Shown: positions 41,246-46,245 of the stretch, piece by piece | How positions within the stretch are numbered: the stretch's first letter is position 1 | Layout of the letters: each line of letters opens with the position of its first letter | Origin: Alphaproteobacteria bacterium | GTDB lineage: Bacteria > Pseudomonadota > Alphaproteobacteria > Micropepsales > Micropepsaceae | Reading direction: 5' to 3' | NCBI GenBank assembly: GCA_018971835.1 | Contig: JAGWZW010000016.1 | Location: 1 to 54,859 of the forward strand | DNA length: 54,859 nucleotides | Notes under the pieces: model-generated | Databases searched by the model: none | What the model was told of the DNA's origin: nothing | The model's input: the letters and a program-made list of their open reading frames with translations, nothing else | Program-made: the position numbers and the translations under genes

Positions 41246-41338
41246 CCGATCCCTGGCGCGGGCGCGAGGCAGACCTCCAAAATGTCTGCCAGCCTGCATA
41301 AGGATATGCAGATTTCTTTATATGCTCCTTGCCCGGGC

Positions 41339-41362
41339 GCCGGGGCGCTGCTATACCCCGGC
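41339..41362 (+). promoter_or_regulatory. Leader hairpin just upstream of the ahcY ribosome site
   Basis: GCCGGGG pairs with CCCCGGC over a 10-base loop (CGCTGCTATA), ending about 17 bases before AGGAG. A GCGCTGC string recalls the SAH riboswitch core, but the rest of that aptamer is not seen. The upstream part (41300-41328) is AT-rich with GCATA...TATGC ends and could be an operator. Confidence 0.4.
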
Positions 41363-41387
41363 CTCGCCGCAGCAACAGGAGCCTTTC

Positions 41388-42791
41388 ATGCCCGCGCCTC
41401 AGGATTACGCCGTCAAGGACATCGCCCTCGCCGATTGGGGCCGCAAGGAACTCGATATCGCCGAGACCGAGATGCCCGGCCTGATGGCCACCCGCGAGGA
41501 ATATGGCCCCCGCCAGCCGCTCAAGGGCGCCCGCATCGCCGGCAGTCTGCATATGACGATCCAGACGGCTGTGCTGATCGAGACGCTGAAGGCCCTGGGC
41601 GCCGACGTGCGCTGGGCCTCCTGCAACATCTATTCGACCCAGGACCACGCCGCTGCCGCTATCGCCGCGGGCGGCACGCCGGTCTTCGCCGTCAAGGGCG
41701 AGAGCCTTGAAGATTACTGGGAATACACCCACCGCATCTTCGAATGGGCCGACGGCGGCACGCCCAACATGATCCTGGACGACGGCGGCGACGCCACGCT
41801 CCTCATTCATCTGGGCAAGCGCGCAGAGGACGGCGACACCGCCTTCCTCGACGGCGCGACCAATGAGGAAGAAGAGGTTCTCTTCGCCGCCATCAAGCGC
41901 CGGCTCAAGCACAAGCACGGCTGGTATTCGAAAGTCGCGAAAAATATCAAGGGCGTGACCGAGGAAACCACCACCGGCGTCCACCGCCTCTACGAGATGC
42001 ACAAGAAGGGCACGCTGTTGTGGCCCGCCATCAACGTCAACGACAGCGTGACCAAGTCGAAATTCGACAATCTCTACGGCTGCCGCGAATCGCTGGTGGA
42101 CGGCATCCGCCGCGCCACCGACGTGATGATGTCCGGCAAGGTGGGCGTGGTCGCCGGCTTCGGCGATGTCGGCAAGGGTTCGGCAGCGTCGCTGCGCCAG
42201 GCCGGCTGCCGCGTCATCGTCACCGAGGTCGATCCCATCTGCGCGCTGCAGGCGGCGATGGAAGGCTATGAGGTCACCACGATGGAAGAGGCCGCACCGC
42301 GCGGCGACATCTTCGTCACCTGCACCGGCAATGTGGACGTCATCACCGTCGAGCACATGCGCGCGATGAAGCACCGCGCGATCGTCTGCAACATCGGCCA
42401 CTTCGACAGCGAGATCCAGATCGCGGGCCTGCGCAATCTCAAGTGGCACAACGTCAAGCCCCAGGTGGACGAGATCGAGTTCTCCGACGGCAAGCGCATC
42501 ATCCTGCTGGCCGAGGGCCGGCTGGTGAACCTGGGCTGCGCCACCGGCCATCCCAGTTTCGTGATGAGCGCCTCCTTCACCAACCAGACGCTGGCGCAGA
42601 TCGAACTCTTCACCAAGACGGCGGAATATCCGGTGGGCGTTTACACCCTGCCCAAGAAGCTGGACGAGAAGGTCGCCAGCCTCCACCTCGCCAAGATCGG
42701 GGTGAAGCTGACCAGGCTCTCCGAGCGGCAGGCCGCCTATATCGACGTGCCGCAGGCCGGCCCCTTCAAGGCCGAGCATTACCGCTACTGA
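41388..42791 (+). CDS. ahcY: Adenosylhomocysteinase
   Basis: A 467-aa NAD-dependent enzyme that splits S-adenosylhomocysteine to homocysteine and adenosine, keeping methyltransferases active. The substrate region ([20 protein letters not shown]), the catalytic block [14 protein letters not shown] motif [17 protein letters not shown] and the C terminus PFKAEHYRY are all canonical. I use the ATG at 41388 with AGGAG upstream; the longer frame overlaps the Spy-like gene. It ends with a strong terminator, so it is monocistronic at its 3' side. Confidence 0.98.
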
Positions 42792-42844
42792 GGCTGCGCC
42801 CGCCGGCCCGATGGCCGGTCGTCACAGATTCGGTACAATCTACC

Positions 42845-42880
42845 GGCGCCCGTCCTGATTAGGATGGGCGCCATGTTTTT
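42845..42880 (+). terminator. Rho-independent terminator of ahcY
   Basis: A 12-bp stem: GGCGCCCGTCCT with AGGATGGGCGCC (one G-T pair), GATT loop, then ATG and five Ts. It separates ahcY from the divL-like gene. Confidence 0.92.
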
Positions 42881-42972
42881 GGCCTGTTCCGTACACCGAT
42901 CGGTTAACGCCTTGATCGGACTCGGCAATCGCGGATTGCGCGACATCTTGTGTCCAACACGAGATTTTGCCG

Positions 42973-42988
42973 TTTACACTTTCTTAAC
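42973..42988 (+). promoter_or_regulatory. CtrA-like box in the divL-like promoter
   Basis: TTTA-CACTTTC-TTAAC differs from the CtrA consensus TTAA-N7-TTAAC at one position. It is about 90 bp upstream of the gene at 43079, where CtrA sites act as activator or repressor elements. A second half-site, TTAAC, occurs at 42904-42908. A GANTC site follows five bases downstream. Confidence 0.5.
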
Positions 42989-43078
42989 CACAGACTCTGG
43001 CCGGTTTCGGTCAATCTCCGTATCATATTGATTCTTATGTGATTCGCGGCGACTCGCGAGATGTGGGGAAGGCCCGCA

Positions 43079-45475
43079 ATGGGTCCAATCAGGGGATACA
43101 AGGGGGGACGGACAAGGTCGCTGGCCGCCCTGCTGGCGGGCACGCTGATGCCTGCGCCTGCCCTGGCCGCACCTGTTGCCACGCCCGACCCGGCACTGAT
43201 CGCAGGCGCCGTTGCCATCGGTGCGGTTTCGCTGGCCGTGGCGGCAGGGCTGTGGGCCCTGGCCGAGCAGCGCGCCGCCAACCGCCTGCGCCGGACCCTC
43301 AAGGGCGCCTCCGCCCGTGCCCGCGCCGCCGCGGGGGCGCGCGATGCCCTGATCTCCGCCGGGCGCGAAGCCCTGATCGTGTGGGGCCGCGACGGCACGC
43401 CCTCCTATTCCTATGCCGGGGGCGAGCAACTGCTGGATTCCTGCCTGGCCGGTGCCGACGCCACGGCCCTGTCGCAGGCCATCGACGCCCTGGCCGATAA
43501 CGGCTCCGCCTTCGATCTTGCCGCCCGCGACCGGGACGGGCGCCGCATCACCTTGCGCGGCCGCGCGGTGGGCAGCATGGCGGCGATCTGGCTGGAGCCG
43601 GAAGCCGCCGGGAAGACGCAGGCGATCGACTTCCGCGCGGTGCTCGACGCCCTGCCGGTGCCGGTGTGGCTGCGCGACAAGGCGCTGGCGCTGGCCTGGG
43701 GCAACCGCGCCTTTCTCGCCGATACCGGCGTGAGCGATATCGAGGCGGCGGTGGCGGCACAAAACGCGCTCGACAAATCCGAGCGCGAGCTTGCCGCCAC
43801 CGCGCGCAGCGAAGGGCGCCCTACCGACGCCACACGCTTCTGCACCGTGGCCGGGCAGCGGCGCGAACTGGCCTTCACCCATACCCCGCTCGACGCCGGC
43901 GGCATCGTGGGCACCGCCATCGACATCACCGACATCTCCGCTGCCGAGACACGGCTGCGCAAGCATGTCGAAGCCAACACCGACACGCTCAACAAGCTGG
44001 TCACGGCGGTGGCGATCTTCGACCGCGAGCAGCACCTGGAATTCTACAACCGCGCCTTTGCGCGGCTGTGGGCCCTGCCCGAAGACTGGCTCAAGAACCA
44101 CCCGACCGACGGCGAAATCCTCGATCGGTTGCGCGAGGCCCGCAAGCTGCCCGAACAGCGCGATTATCGCGCCTGGAAGCGCGCGCGACTGGAACTCTAC
44201 GGTCAGAGCGGCGAATACATGCCCGAGGATCTCTGGCACCTGCCCGGCGGCAAGACCCTGCGCGTGGTGGCGCAGCGCCATCCCTTCGGCGGGCTCACCT
44301 TCCTTTATGAAGACGTCACCGAGAAGCTCGAACTGGAAAGCGAGTACAACACGCTGAGCAAGGTGCAGTCCGCCACGCTCGACACGCTGCAGGAAGGCGT
44401 GGCGGTGTTCGGGCCGGACGGCAAGCTCAAGCTGCACAACGCCGCCTTCGCGCGGCTGTGGGAGCTGGAGCCGGCGCTGCTGAACGGCGAGCCGCACATG
44501 CGCCGCATCGCCGAAGCCTGCCTCGGCCGCTTCGGCGAGAAGGACAAATGGCAATCGCTGATCGCCAGCATCTCTTCGGGCTCGGAGCGCCGGCGCGAAT
44601 GGGGCCAGATGGAGCGCAGCGACCGCACCATCCTCTCGATCTGGCTGGCGCCGCTGCCGGACGGCGCCACGCTGGTCAGTTTCGCCGACATCACCGACCG
44701 CTCGCGCATCGAGGCGGCGTTGCGCGACCGCAACGAGGCGCTGATCGCCGCCGACCGGCTGAAATCGGACTTCATCCACCACGCCTCGTTCCTGTTCCGC
44801 GACCCGCTCAACGCCGTACACGGTTTCGCCGAACTGCTCGCCACCGGCAGCGCCGGGCCGCTCAACGCCAAGCAGCAAGGCTATATCCAGGACATCCTCG
44901 CCGCCTCGACCCGGCTGGCCGAAGTCACCAGCGACATCCTCGACCTGGCGCTGATCGATTCCGGCGCCATGCGGCTGGAACTGGCGCGCGTCGACCTGCG
45001 CGAACTGCTGGAGCACGTCATCGAGCCCTTCCGCCGCCACGCCGAGAGCCTCGACATCGCCTTCACGCTCGACTGCGCGCCCGAGATCGGCGTCGTCATG
45101 GTGGACCAGAAGCGCATCCGCCAGGTGGTGTTCAACCTGTTGTCCAACGCCTTCAAGTACACCCCGCGCGGCGGCGCGGTGACGCTGGGCGCCACCGCTG
45201 TCGGGGACGACGTGCAGATCTTCGTGGCCGACACCGGGCCGGGCATCGCGCCGGAAGTGAAGGCCAATGTGTTCGAGCGCTTTGCCGCCAAGGGCCAGAA
45301 CGGCAGCCGCGCCGGTGCCGGGCTGGGGCTGGCACTCGTCAACCGCTTCATCGAGCTGCATGACGGCTGGGTCGAAGTCGACACCAGCGGCCGCTCCGGC
45401 ACGCTGGTGCGCTGCCACCTGCCGCGCCGCGTGCCCGAGGGCGAGCCGCCGGCGCGCGAAAGCTCCGTGGCATAG
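43079..45475 (+). CDS. divL: DivL-like PAS sensor histidine-kinase homolog, Phe at the acceptor site
   Basis: A 798-aa membrane-linked protein: N-terminal hydrophobic segments (about 12-35 and 45-63), at least two PAS-like domains (near 190-300, then NTLNKLVTAVAIFDREQHLEFYNRAFARLW-type repeats near 310 and 440), a dimerisation helix pair and a complete ATPase domain (NLLSNAFKYTP, DTGPGIAP, GAGLGLALV). The H-box reads FIHHASFLFRDPLNAV, so residue 571 is Phe where kinases have His and Caulobacter DivL has Tyr. DivL is a pseudokinase that controls CckA and hence CtrA. The position upstream of tsaE-amgK-murU-addB fits divL as I recall it. The ATG at 43079 has GGGGAAGG; an ATG at 43061 is possible. 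Confidence 0.75.
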   Translation: MGPIRGYKGGRTRSLAALLAGTLMPAPALAAPVATPDPALIAGAVAIGAVSLAVAAGLWALAEQRAANRLRRTLKGASARARAAAGARDALISAGREALIVWGRDGTPSYSYAGGEQLLDSCLAGADATALSQAIDALADNGSAFDLAARDRDGRRITLRGRAVGSMAAIWLEPEAAGKTQAIDFRAVLDALPVPVWLRDKALALAWGNRAFLADTGVSDIEAAVAAQNALDKSERELAATARSEGRPTDATRFCTVAGQRRELAFTHTPLDAGGIVGTAIDITDISAAETRLRKHVEANTDTLNKLVTAVAIFDREQHLEFYNRAFARLWALPEDWLKNHPTDGEILDRLREARKLPEQRDYRAWKRARLELYGQSGEYMPEDLWHLPGGKTLRVVAQRHPFGGLTFLYEDVTEKLELESEYNTLSKVQSATLDTLQEGVAVFGPDGKLKLHNAAFARLWELEPALLNGEPHMRRIAEACLGRFGEKDKWQSLIASISSGSERRREWGQMERSDRTILSIWLAPLPDGATLVSFADITDRSRIEAALRDRNEALIAADRLKSDFIHHASFLFRDPLNAVHGFAELLATGSAGPLNAKQQGYIQDILAASTRLAEVTSDILDLALIDSGAMRLELARVDLRELLEHVIEPFRRHAESLDIAFTLDCAPEIGVVMVDQKRIRQVVFNLLSNAFKYTPRGGAVTLGATAVGDDVQIFVADTGPGIAPEVKANVFERFAAKGQNGSRAGAGLGLALVNRFIELHDGWVEVDTSGRSGTLVRCHLPRRVPEGEPPARESSVA

Positions 45476-45565: not shown

Positions 45566-45808
45566 ATGGCACCAAAGGAACATATTGTAACCTCGGCGGG
45601 CGAATTGGTGCGCAAGTTCTCGCACTACAGCGATGCGGCGTTGGCCAAGCCCGTGGTCGTGACCAAGAACGGCCGCCCACGGAACATTTTGCTGTCCGTG
45701 CCGGAATATGAGCGGCTCAAGATGCGCGATCAGCAAGCGTTCCGCGCCGTCGATACGCCGGAACGGTTTCTTGCTGATATCGAAGCGCTCGCAGGCCGCA
45801 AGCGTTGA
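45566..45808 (+). CDS. Phd/YefM-family antitoxin
   Basis: An 80-aa protein with the Phd/YefM N-terminal DNA-binding fold: IVTSAGELVRKFSHYSDAAL, then KPVVVTKNGRPRNILLSVPEYERL, the family's most conserved block. The C terminus would wrap the toxin. GAGGAGA precedes the ATG. The toxin gene starts inside its stop codon. It sits between the divL-like gene and the ferredoxin pair, with an AT-rich promoter unlike the surroundings. Confidence 0.88.
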   Translation: MAPKEHIVTSAGELVRKFSHYSDAALAKPVVVTKNGRPRNILLSVPEYERLKMRDQQAFRAVDTPERFLADIEALAGRKR

Positions 45809-46245
45809 ATCTCGCGCCGCCGGAGCGGGGCTCCGTCATCCGTTACGCCTATCTTTGGGCAGACGAACACAGGCGCGGCCGCGAGGAAGCGCAAAAAGAC
45901 CGCCCCGCTCTCGTTCTGGCCTTATCGGTTCGCACCAGCGATGACCGCACAGAAGTTCTCGTCCTCGCCATTACGCATACCCCGCCGACCCGACAAACCG
46001 AAGCCGTCGCCTTACCGCCTCAAGTCAAGCGCCGACTTAAACTGGATGACGACGCCTCTTGGATCGTCACCACAGAGGCCAATGCCTTCATCTGGCCCGG
46101 CCCCGATATCCGCCCGATCCCGAACCGCGCCCATCTGGGCGTCGTGTACGGAAAAATCCCCGAGGACTTGCTGCAGGCGGTGGCCCGATCTTTTCTCGCC
46201 AACAGGAAGCGGCAACAAACGAAATTTGTTCCGCGCAGCGGTTGA
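45805..46245 (+). CDS. Putative PemK/MazF-like toxin
   Basis: A 146-aa protein. PPERGSVIRYAYLWADEH near the start, KDRPALVLAL near residue 31 and ITHTPP near 57 follow the layout of MazF/PemK ribonucleases (an RG near the N terminus and a KxRPxLV strand), in the longer form seen beside Phd-type antitoxins. It is larger than classic MazF (about 110 aa) and SWIVTTEANAFIWPGPD is a distinct block, so assignment is tentative. The only usable start is TTG at 45805, overlapping the antitoxin stop (TTGA); weak initiation would keep toxin below antitoxin. Confidence 0.7.
   Translation: MNLAPPERGSVIRYAYLWADEHRRGREEAQKDRPALVLALSVRTSDDRTEVLVLAITHTPPTRQTEAVALPPQVKRRLKLDDDASWIVTTEANAFIWPGPDIRPIPNRAHLGVVYGKIPEDLLQAVARSFLANRKRQQTKFVPRSG

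Follow-up and report, generated by a model that had tools for sequence, protein, structure and literature searches.

Cell-cycle wiring is known to have been rewired among the Alphaproteobacteria. DivL takes part in controlling CtrA, the master switch of the cell cycle; in Caulobacter, its phosphoacceptor histidine is replaced by a tyrosine. In C. crescentus and B. subvibrioides, divL is a member of the GcrA regulon; among 23 Caulobacteraceae and Hyphomonadaceae, GcrA control of the gene was predicted for most, and in other orders for only few representatives (PMC7987155). The same study hypothesised that TGATTCG is the context of a GANTC site suited to GcrA activation. The P1 promoter of Caulobacter ctrA has a GANTC site at -28/-29 and CtrA boxes in the same leader, and Caulobacter transcription start sites activated at 40-60 min have GANTC between -10 and -35, with GANTC elsewhere going together with a minimum at that time (PMC4287350). 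The promoter of mipZ, a GcrA-dependent gene of Caulobacter, contains two juxtaposed GANTC sites (PMC3667746). For the Rhodobacterales, CtrA control of cckA and divL has been predicted, with a CtrA site upstream of divL as feedback, and there the CtrA module is portrayed as separate from GcrA and CcrM (PMC2877005). Promoters of ctrA in the Sphingomonadales and Caulobacterales carry from one up to five or six GANTC sites in 300 bp (PMC8116508).

GcrA control of divL has already been reported in the Caulobacterales, where GANTC sites likewise lie upstream of the GcrA-regulated divL gene (PMC7987155), and the divL leader described here is a variant on that arrangement. What is new is a fixed layout of the leader, together with a distribution in which dense GANTC sites are found on the ccrM and divL leaders and not on the ctrA leaders. 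The published comparisons consulted scored the presence, number and strength of motifs, and the Caulobacterales study scored their presence, number and conservation from -200 to +100 (PMC7987155), whereas the divL leaders considered here keep a strict layout of GANTC pair, hexamer and CtrA box throughout a genus. The leader resembles the mipZ promoter in having two juxtaposed GANTC sites. Unlike the Rhodobacterales module, isolated from GcrA and CcrM, both kinds of site share one leader here. In the part of the open literature that was covered, no description was found of the strictly spaced combined layout or of the contrast with ctrA leaders. A promoter whose geometry is fixed in more than 50 species offers a clear way to test how one start site combines CtrA with methylation, and the same promoter would test whether DivL, rather than CtrA, can be a methylation-sensitive node.

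The window, meaning the whole 54,859-nt stretch of DNA that was analysed, comes from a genome of 3.67 Mb in 162 contigs. The divL-like gene occupies positions 43079-45475 on the forward strand, and the leader is bounded upstream by ahcY (41292-42791, same strand; NCBIfam TIGR00936 above cut-off). The Pfam domains PAS_7, PAS_4, HisKA and HATPase_c all score above their cut-offs in the divL product, and no NCBIfam model does so among the best 25 of 75 matches. The position of the phosphoacceptor histidine is occupied by phenylalanine in this protein; counted by eye among 71 orthologs, it is tyrosine in 56, phenylalanine in 13 (this gene included) and unreadable in 2. By its domains and H-box, the product is thus a DivL-like pseudokinase. 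The H-box mostly reads SYELRTPL; in this gene and 12 relatives it is SFLFRDPL or close to it, the residues around the phenylalanine having changed as well. A match to DivL at E 1e-60 or better was obtained in 87 of 96 genomes of the host family, and a scan of genome contigs with DivL returned one close match, an unclassified metagenome-assembled genome (L033, 91% DivL identity), plus four remote kinases. No 16S gene was found in the genome studied here; that of G066, a genome of the same genus, matched plasmid-borne 16S at 88.2% in the best of 15 matches listed, and 10 of 533 records have a best place of at least 90% outside that listing.

The leader contains six GANTC sites within 229 bp (42827, 42919, 42993, 43030, 43041 and 43051), three of them packed into 43030-43055, and every coordinate of the original prediction was confirmed. 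The start codon of divL is most likely the ATG at 43079, with the Shine-Dalgarno-like GGGGAAGG at 43065-43072 (forward strand) as its ribosome site; inspection of the sequence upstream of the in-frame ATG at 43061 revealed no ribosome site, and all six GANTC sites are upstream of both codons. The most distal site (42827-42831) lies just downstream of ahcY. It is followed on the forward strand by a distal element, GTTAAC...GGACTC (42903-42923), that contains the site at 42919-42923, by two CNACATCTTGT-like motif copies about 20 bp apart (42940-42971) and by a CtrA-like box, TTTA-N7-TTAACC, that runs into ACA (42973-42992). The predicted TTTA-N7-TTAAC at 42973-42988 is indeed one mismatch away from the CtrA consensus TTAA-N7-TTAAC. 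Directly behind the box is a GACTC (42993-42997), and further downstream are a putative -10 hexamer, TATCAT (43021-43026, forward strand), with a start predicted at about 43033, the pair GATTC-N6-GATTC (43030-43045), which has an 11-bp period and a second site in the context TGATTCG, and the third GANTC of the cluster (43051-43055). A small hairpin can start at the second GATTC (43041-43066), and an inverted repeat, GTCCC-N-GGGAC, spans the first divL codons (43079-43110) in many orthologs.

Whether such a cluster could arise by chance depends on how common GANTC is in the genome. The motif is depleted in the window (89 observed versus 215.6 expected from dinucleotide shuffles), and none of the other intergenic regions called there exceeds two sites, as had been claimed. 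Counts were extended to a sample made of the window and 40 further stretches (718,095 bp, about 20% of the genome), in which a custom codon-usage script defined the genes. The sample holds 1118 GANTC sites at 1.42 per kb of coding and 2.55 per kb of intergenic DNA, densities that agree with the intergenic bias reported in Alphaproteobacteria (PMC3973325). Among its 286 promoter-containing intergenic regions, four others have at least five sites, each more than 900 bp long, compared with 356 bp for the divL leader as called. Apart from the divL leader, no place in this fifth of the genome packs three GANTC into 26 bp or six into 235 bp. The genome's own ccrM leader, which lies outside the sample, is denser, with six GANTC in 81 bp. 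The sample contains six GANTC-N6-GANTC pairs, of which three, including that of the divL leader, fall in DNA predicted to be intergenic. The Poisson probability of at least six GANTC in 287 bp at the intergenic density is 1.1e-4, which, extrapolated to about 1,460 promoter regions, corresponds to about 0.17 such leaders expected genome-wide. The site count by itself is thus not overwhelming, and the case rests on conservation.

Conservation was assessed in 71 leaders, namely those of 70 of the 87 genomes with a DivL match and that of L033; the remaining 17 genomes gave partial or weaker matches or were not retrieved. GANTC is enriched in these leaders, as the original prediction had anticipated. 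The 53 leaders with DivL identity of at least 56% and 260 bp available have a mean of 4.28 GANTC per 260 bp, where the remaining parts of these loci predict 0.41, and 15 leaders with identity below 56% have 3.47 versus 0.47. These counts are approximate, since a script picked the start codons and not all of them are reliable (in L085 the chosen frame has 8 residues). Of 56 loci that are 9 kb or longer, 49 have their densest 130 bp in the leader, ties included, and 38 have it there uniquely; in the other 7, GANTC is denser somewhere other than the divL leader. A pair of GANTC sites 11-13 bp apart is present in the last 130 bp of 59 of the 71 leaders, with a spacing of 11 in 53. Within the set made of the same genus and L033, 55 of 57 leaders have this pair; of the two that do not, G028 is cut short by a contig end 13 bp ahead of the called start and G049 has one site. 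The pair is absent from ten leaders of other genera, eight of which still have at least three GANTC in 260 bp.

The pair is part of a larger arrangement. In a 58-row alignment, restricted to leaders with the pair whose DivL identity is 54% or more, the columns of the pair, of TATC and of TTAACC are near-invariant and the spacers are variable. Among the 59 leaders with a pair, the hexamer 3 bp ahead of it is TATCAT 30 times and TATCTT 22 times (52 of 59 together), and TTAAC followed by C or T lies 45-46 bp upstream of the first site in 53. The CtrA-like box was conserved in one half: TTAACC is among the most conserved elements of the leader, but the first half is variable (TTTA in 28, TTCA in 17 and TTAG in 8). 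The second site of the pair has the context TGATTCG in 57 of 59 leaders, and the pattern YGAKTCK, on either strand, fits the second site in all 59 and the first in 10. Further upstream, a GANTC lies 104-116 bp from the pair in 42 of 58 leaders, within a distal element whose consensus across the 58 aligned leaders is TTAA-N4-CTGATTTGACTC. An extra GANTC exactly 26 bp before the pair occurs in 26 of the 59 leaders, at -29 from the predicted start, which matches the site of Caulobacter ctrA P1 (PMC4287350); this site is missing from the genome studied here. Matches to a loose CNACATCTTGT-like pattern are found at about -139 and/or -119 in part of the orthologous divL leaders.

As a conserved unit, the six-site leader survived in part. 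Only the sites at 42919, 43030 and 43041 are broadly conserved. The site at 43051 has a counterpart at the same offset in 3 of the 59 leaders, this one included, and is seen in L033 and G023, and the site at 42827 has no conserved counterpart in the alignment. The emphasis previously placed on the GACTC right behind the CtrA box was not upheld, as the corresponding sequence in L033 is GTCTC and the offset of 37 occurs in 1 of 59 leaders, making the site private to this genome. That three of the six sites lack broad conservation and that the expected number of such leaders is as high as 0.17 per genome are what a functionless chance clustering would have in its favor. This explanation is nevertheless hard to credit at all, since it is contradicted by the conservation, the positions being fixed across a genus-level set, and the cluster is the only one of its kind in the 718-kb sample.

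The regulators that such sites would serve are present. CcrM and CtrA, which the original prediction presupposed, are both encoded by the genome, as are GcrA and ChpT. The CcrM-type methylase combines an N6_N4_Mtase domain with a RAMA tail, and its top-scoring NCBIfam model is that for CcrM, with 624.7 bits against a cut-off of 830 that is not reached. CtrA is 81% identical over 201 residues to a Caulobacter sequence. Within the host family, ccrM was found in 85, gcrA in 87 and CtrA matches in 84 of 96 genomes, and in genomes at least 90% complete the figures are 60 of 60 for CcrM and 58 of 60 each for GcrA and CtrA. One genome with the pair, G029 (95% complete, 10 contigs), has no GcrA match, and two others, G023 and G024, have no CtrA match at E 1e-85. 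Because these regulators are near-universal in the more complete genomes, assembly gaps may lie behind the three absences.

Taken together, these features suggest that the divL leader is a compact cell-cycle promoter that receives inputs from CtrA and from CcrM and GcrA, a reading to which a probability of roughly 0.6 is given on the strength of sequence comparison. Since the core is kept in nearly all genus relatives examined, DNA replication and CtrA itself probably determine when divL is expressed. RNA polymerase carrying the housekeeping sigma factor would use TATCAT at 43021-43026 and start transcription near 43033; this genome has a poor -35 region (TGGCCG, with a spacer of 17 bp). CtrA would bind at 42973-42989, about -60 to -44, a place suited to an activator, so that active CtrA would raise the level of DivL, its own upstream activator. 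CcrM would methylate the GATTC pair, which in the frame of the predicted start lies at -3 and +9 and so straddles it, and GcrA would read the methylation state at the second site, whose sequence matches the reported extended motif. The output of divL would then change as the replication fork passes and the sites are later remethylated. As TGATTCG is the context hypothesised for GcrA activation, a promoter that joins CtrA with GcrA-read methylation is proposed, and we lean towards activation by GcrA as the effect of methylation.

This proposal is weakest on whether methylation activates or represses, because the conserved pair sits on or beyond the predicted start. Counted from that predicted start, this leader has no GANTC between -10 and -35, and its pair, unlike the sites of the Caulobacter starts activated at 40-60 min, lies outside that interval, so methylation could repress. 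It is possible, though doubtful, that CtrA controls the promoter and that GANTC close to the start acts chiefly as a mark for repression or delay, with GcrA not being its reader. Sites at about -3 and +9 would suit such a mark, given that Caulobacter starts whose GANTC lies outside -10/-35 reach their minimum at 40-60 min (PMC4287350); dense GANTC near the gene is also a feature of ccrM leaders in the same family, and G029 keeps the pair with no GcrA match. Against it stand the context TGATTCG in 57 of 59 second sites, which is the one hypothesised for GcrA activation (PMC7987155), and the occurrence of GcrA in 87 of the 96 family genomes.

Two further explanations would account for the conservation of the pair without cell-cycle control. 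If the pair were a degenerate LexA box, its conservation would reflect SOS control and the GANTC sites would be a by-product. The 11-bp period is identical to that of the box, and overlap of LexA and GANTC sites has been noted (PMC7987155), but a LexA box reads GTTC-N7-GTTC and the pair reads ATTC-N7-ATTC, on which ground it was rejected as a candidate box. It is the whole GATTC that is conserved in the alignment, and the conserved sites 26 and about 111 bp upstream have no 11-bp partner in the list of offsets, making SOS control quite improbable. Perfect LexA-like boxes in the sample, with 12 coding and 11 intergenic calls, are little informative. The other explanation, that a hairpin in the 5' untranslated RNA beginning at the second GATTC is responsible for part of the conservation, is also improbable. 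Complementary arms of varying sequence look regular by eye in many leaders, and the mean best stem across the 59 leaders is 6.2 versus 5.2 in shuffles, yet RNAalifold returned no consensus structure for 58 sequences, the mean fold z-score is -0.54, with values below -1 in 20 of 58, and a hairpin would leave the first GATTC, the hexamer and the CtrA box unexplained.

A promoter that combines CtrA with GcrA-read methylation at divL also bears on where methylation enters the circuit. In the host family, ctrA leaders have a mean of 1.27 GANTC per 260 bp, with 0-3 in each (30 loci returned of 84 matching genomes), and gcrA leaders likewise have a mean of 1.27 (30 loci returned of 87 matching genomes). 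The ccrM leaders have 2 to 9 GANTC, and at least six in 27 of 30 loci, counted for 30 of 85 genomes in the 330 bp before residue 30, a stretch that differs from the 260 bp used elsewhere. Dense GANTC in this family is therefore a property of the ccrM and divL leaders and not of ctrA leaders. The divL promoter differs from the ctrA promoters of Caulobacter in the gene it serves, in the position of the main conserved pair at the predicted start, and in being found alongside ctrA leaders of so few sites. One tentative interpretation, which we would sooner doubt than accept, is that the methylation clock in this family acts one step upstream, on divL and on ccrM with its array of about six sites rather than mainly on ctrA, and that the CtrA box of divL closes a fork-gated loop from CtrA through DivL and CckA back to CtrA.

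In the ccrM leaders (L001:2313-2490 in this genome; L146-L175 in relatives), about six GANTC sites are arrayed around a TTGACCTGTG-like sequence; this array is conserved for the most part, is denser than that of divL and is a candidate for methylation autoregulation. Many ccrM leaders and some divL leaders contain a CNACATCTTGT-like palindrome, which in the divL leaders can be present twice, at a distance of about 20 bp. The palindrome CAASATSTTG of the ccrM leaders is rare in this genome, with 2 coding and 0 intergenic exact matches in the sample. On the 3' side of divL, at 45805-46245, lies a gene for a PemK/MazF-like protein that barely passes its Pfam cut-off (23.3 versus 23.1 bits). The genome also encodes a second DivL-like protein (L119:16166-17854, minus strand) of 562 amino acids, which stops ahead of the kinase part and is preceded by an intergenic region with five GANTC in 919 bp. 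About 20 genomes of the family have a second DivL match that ends near query residue 550-590.
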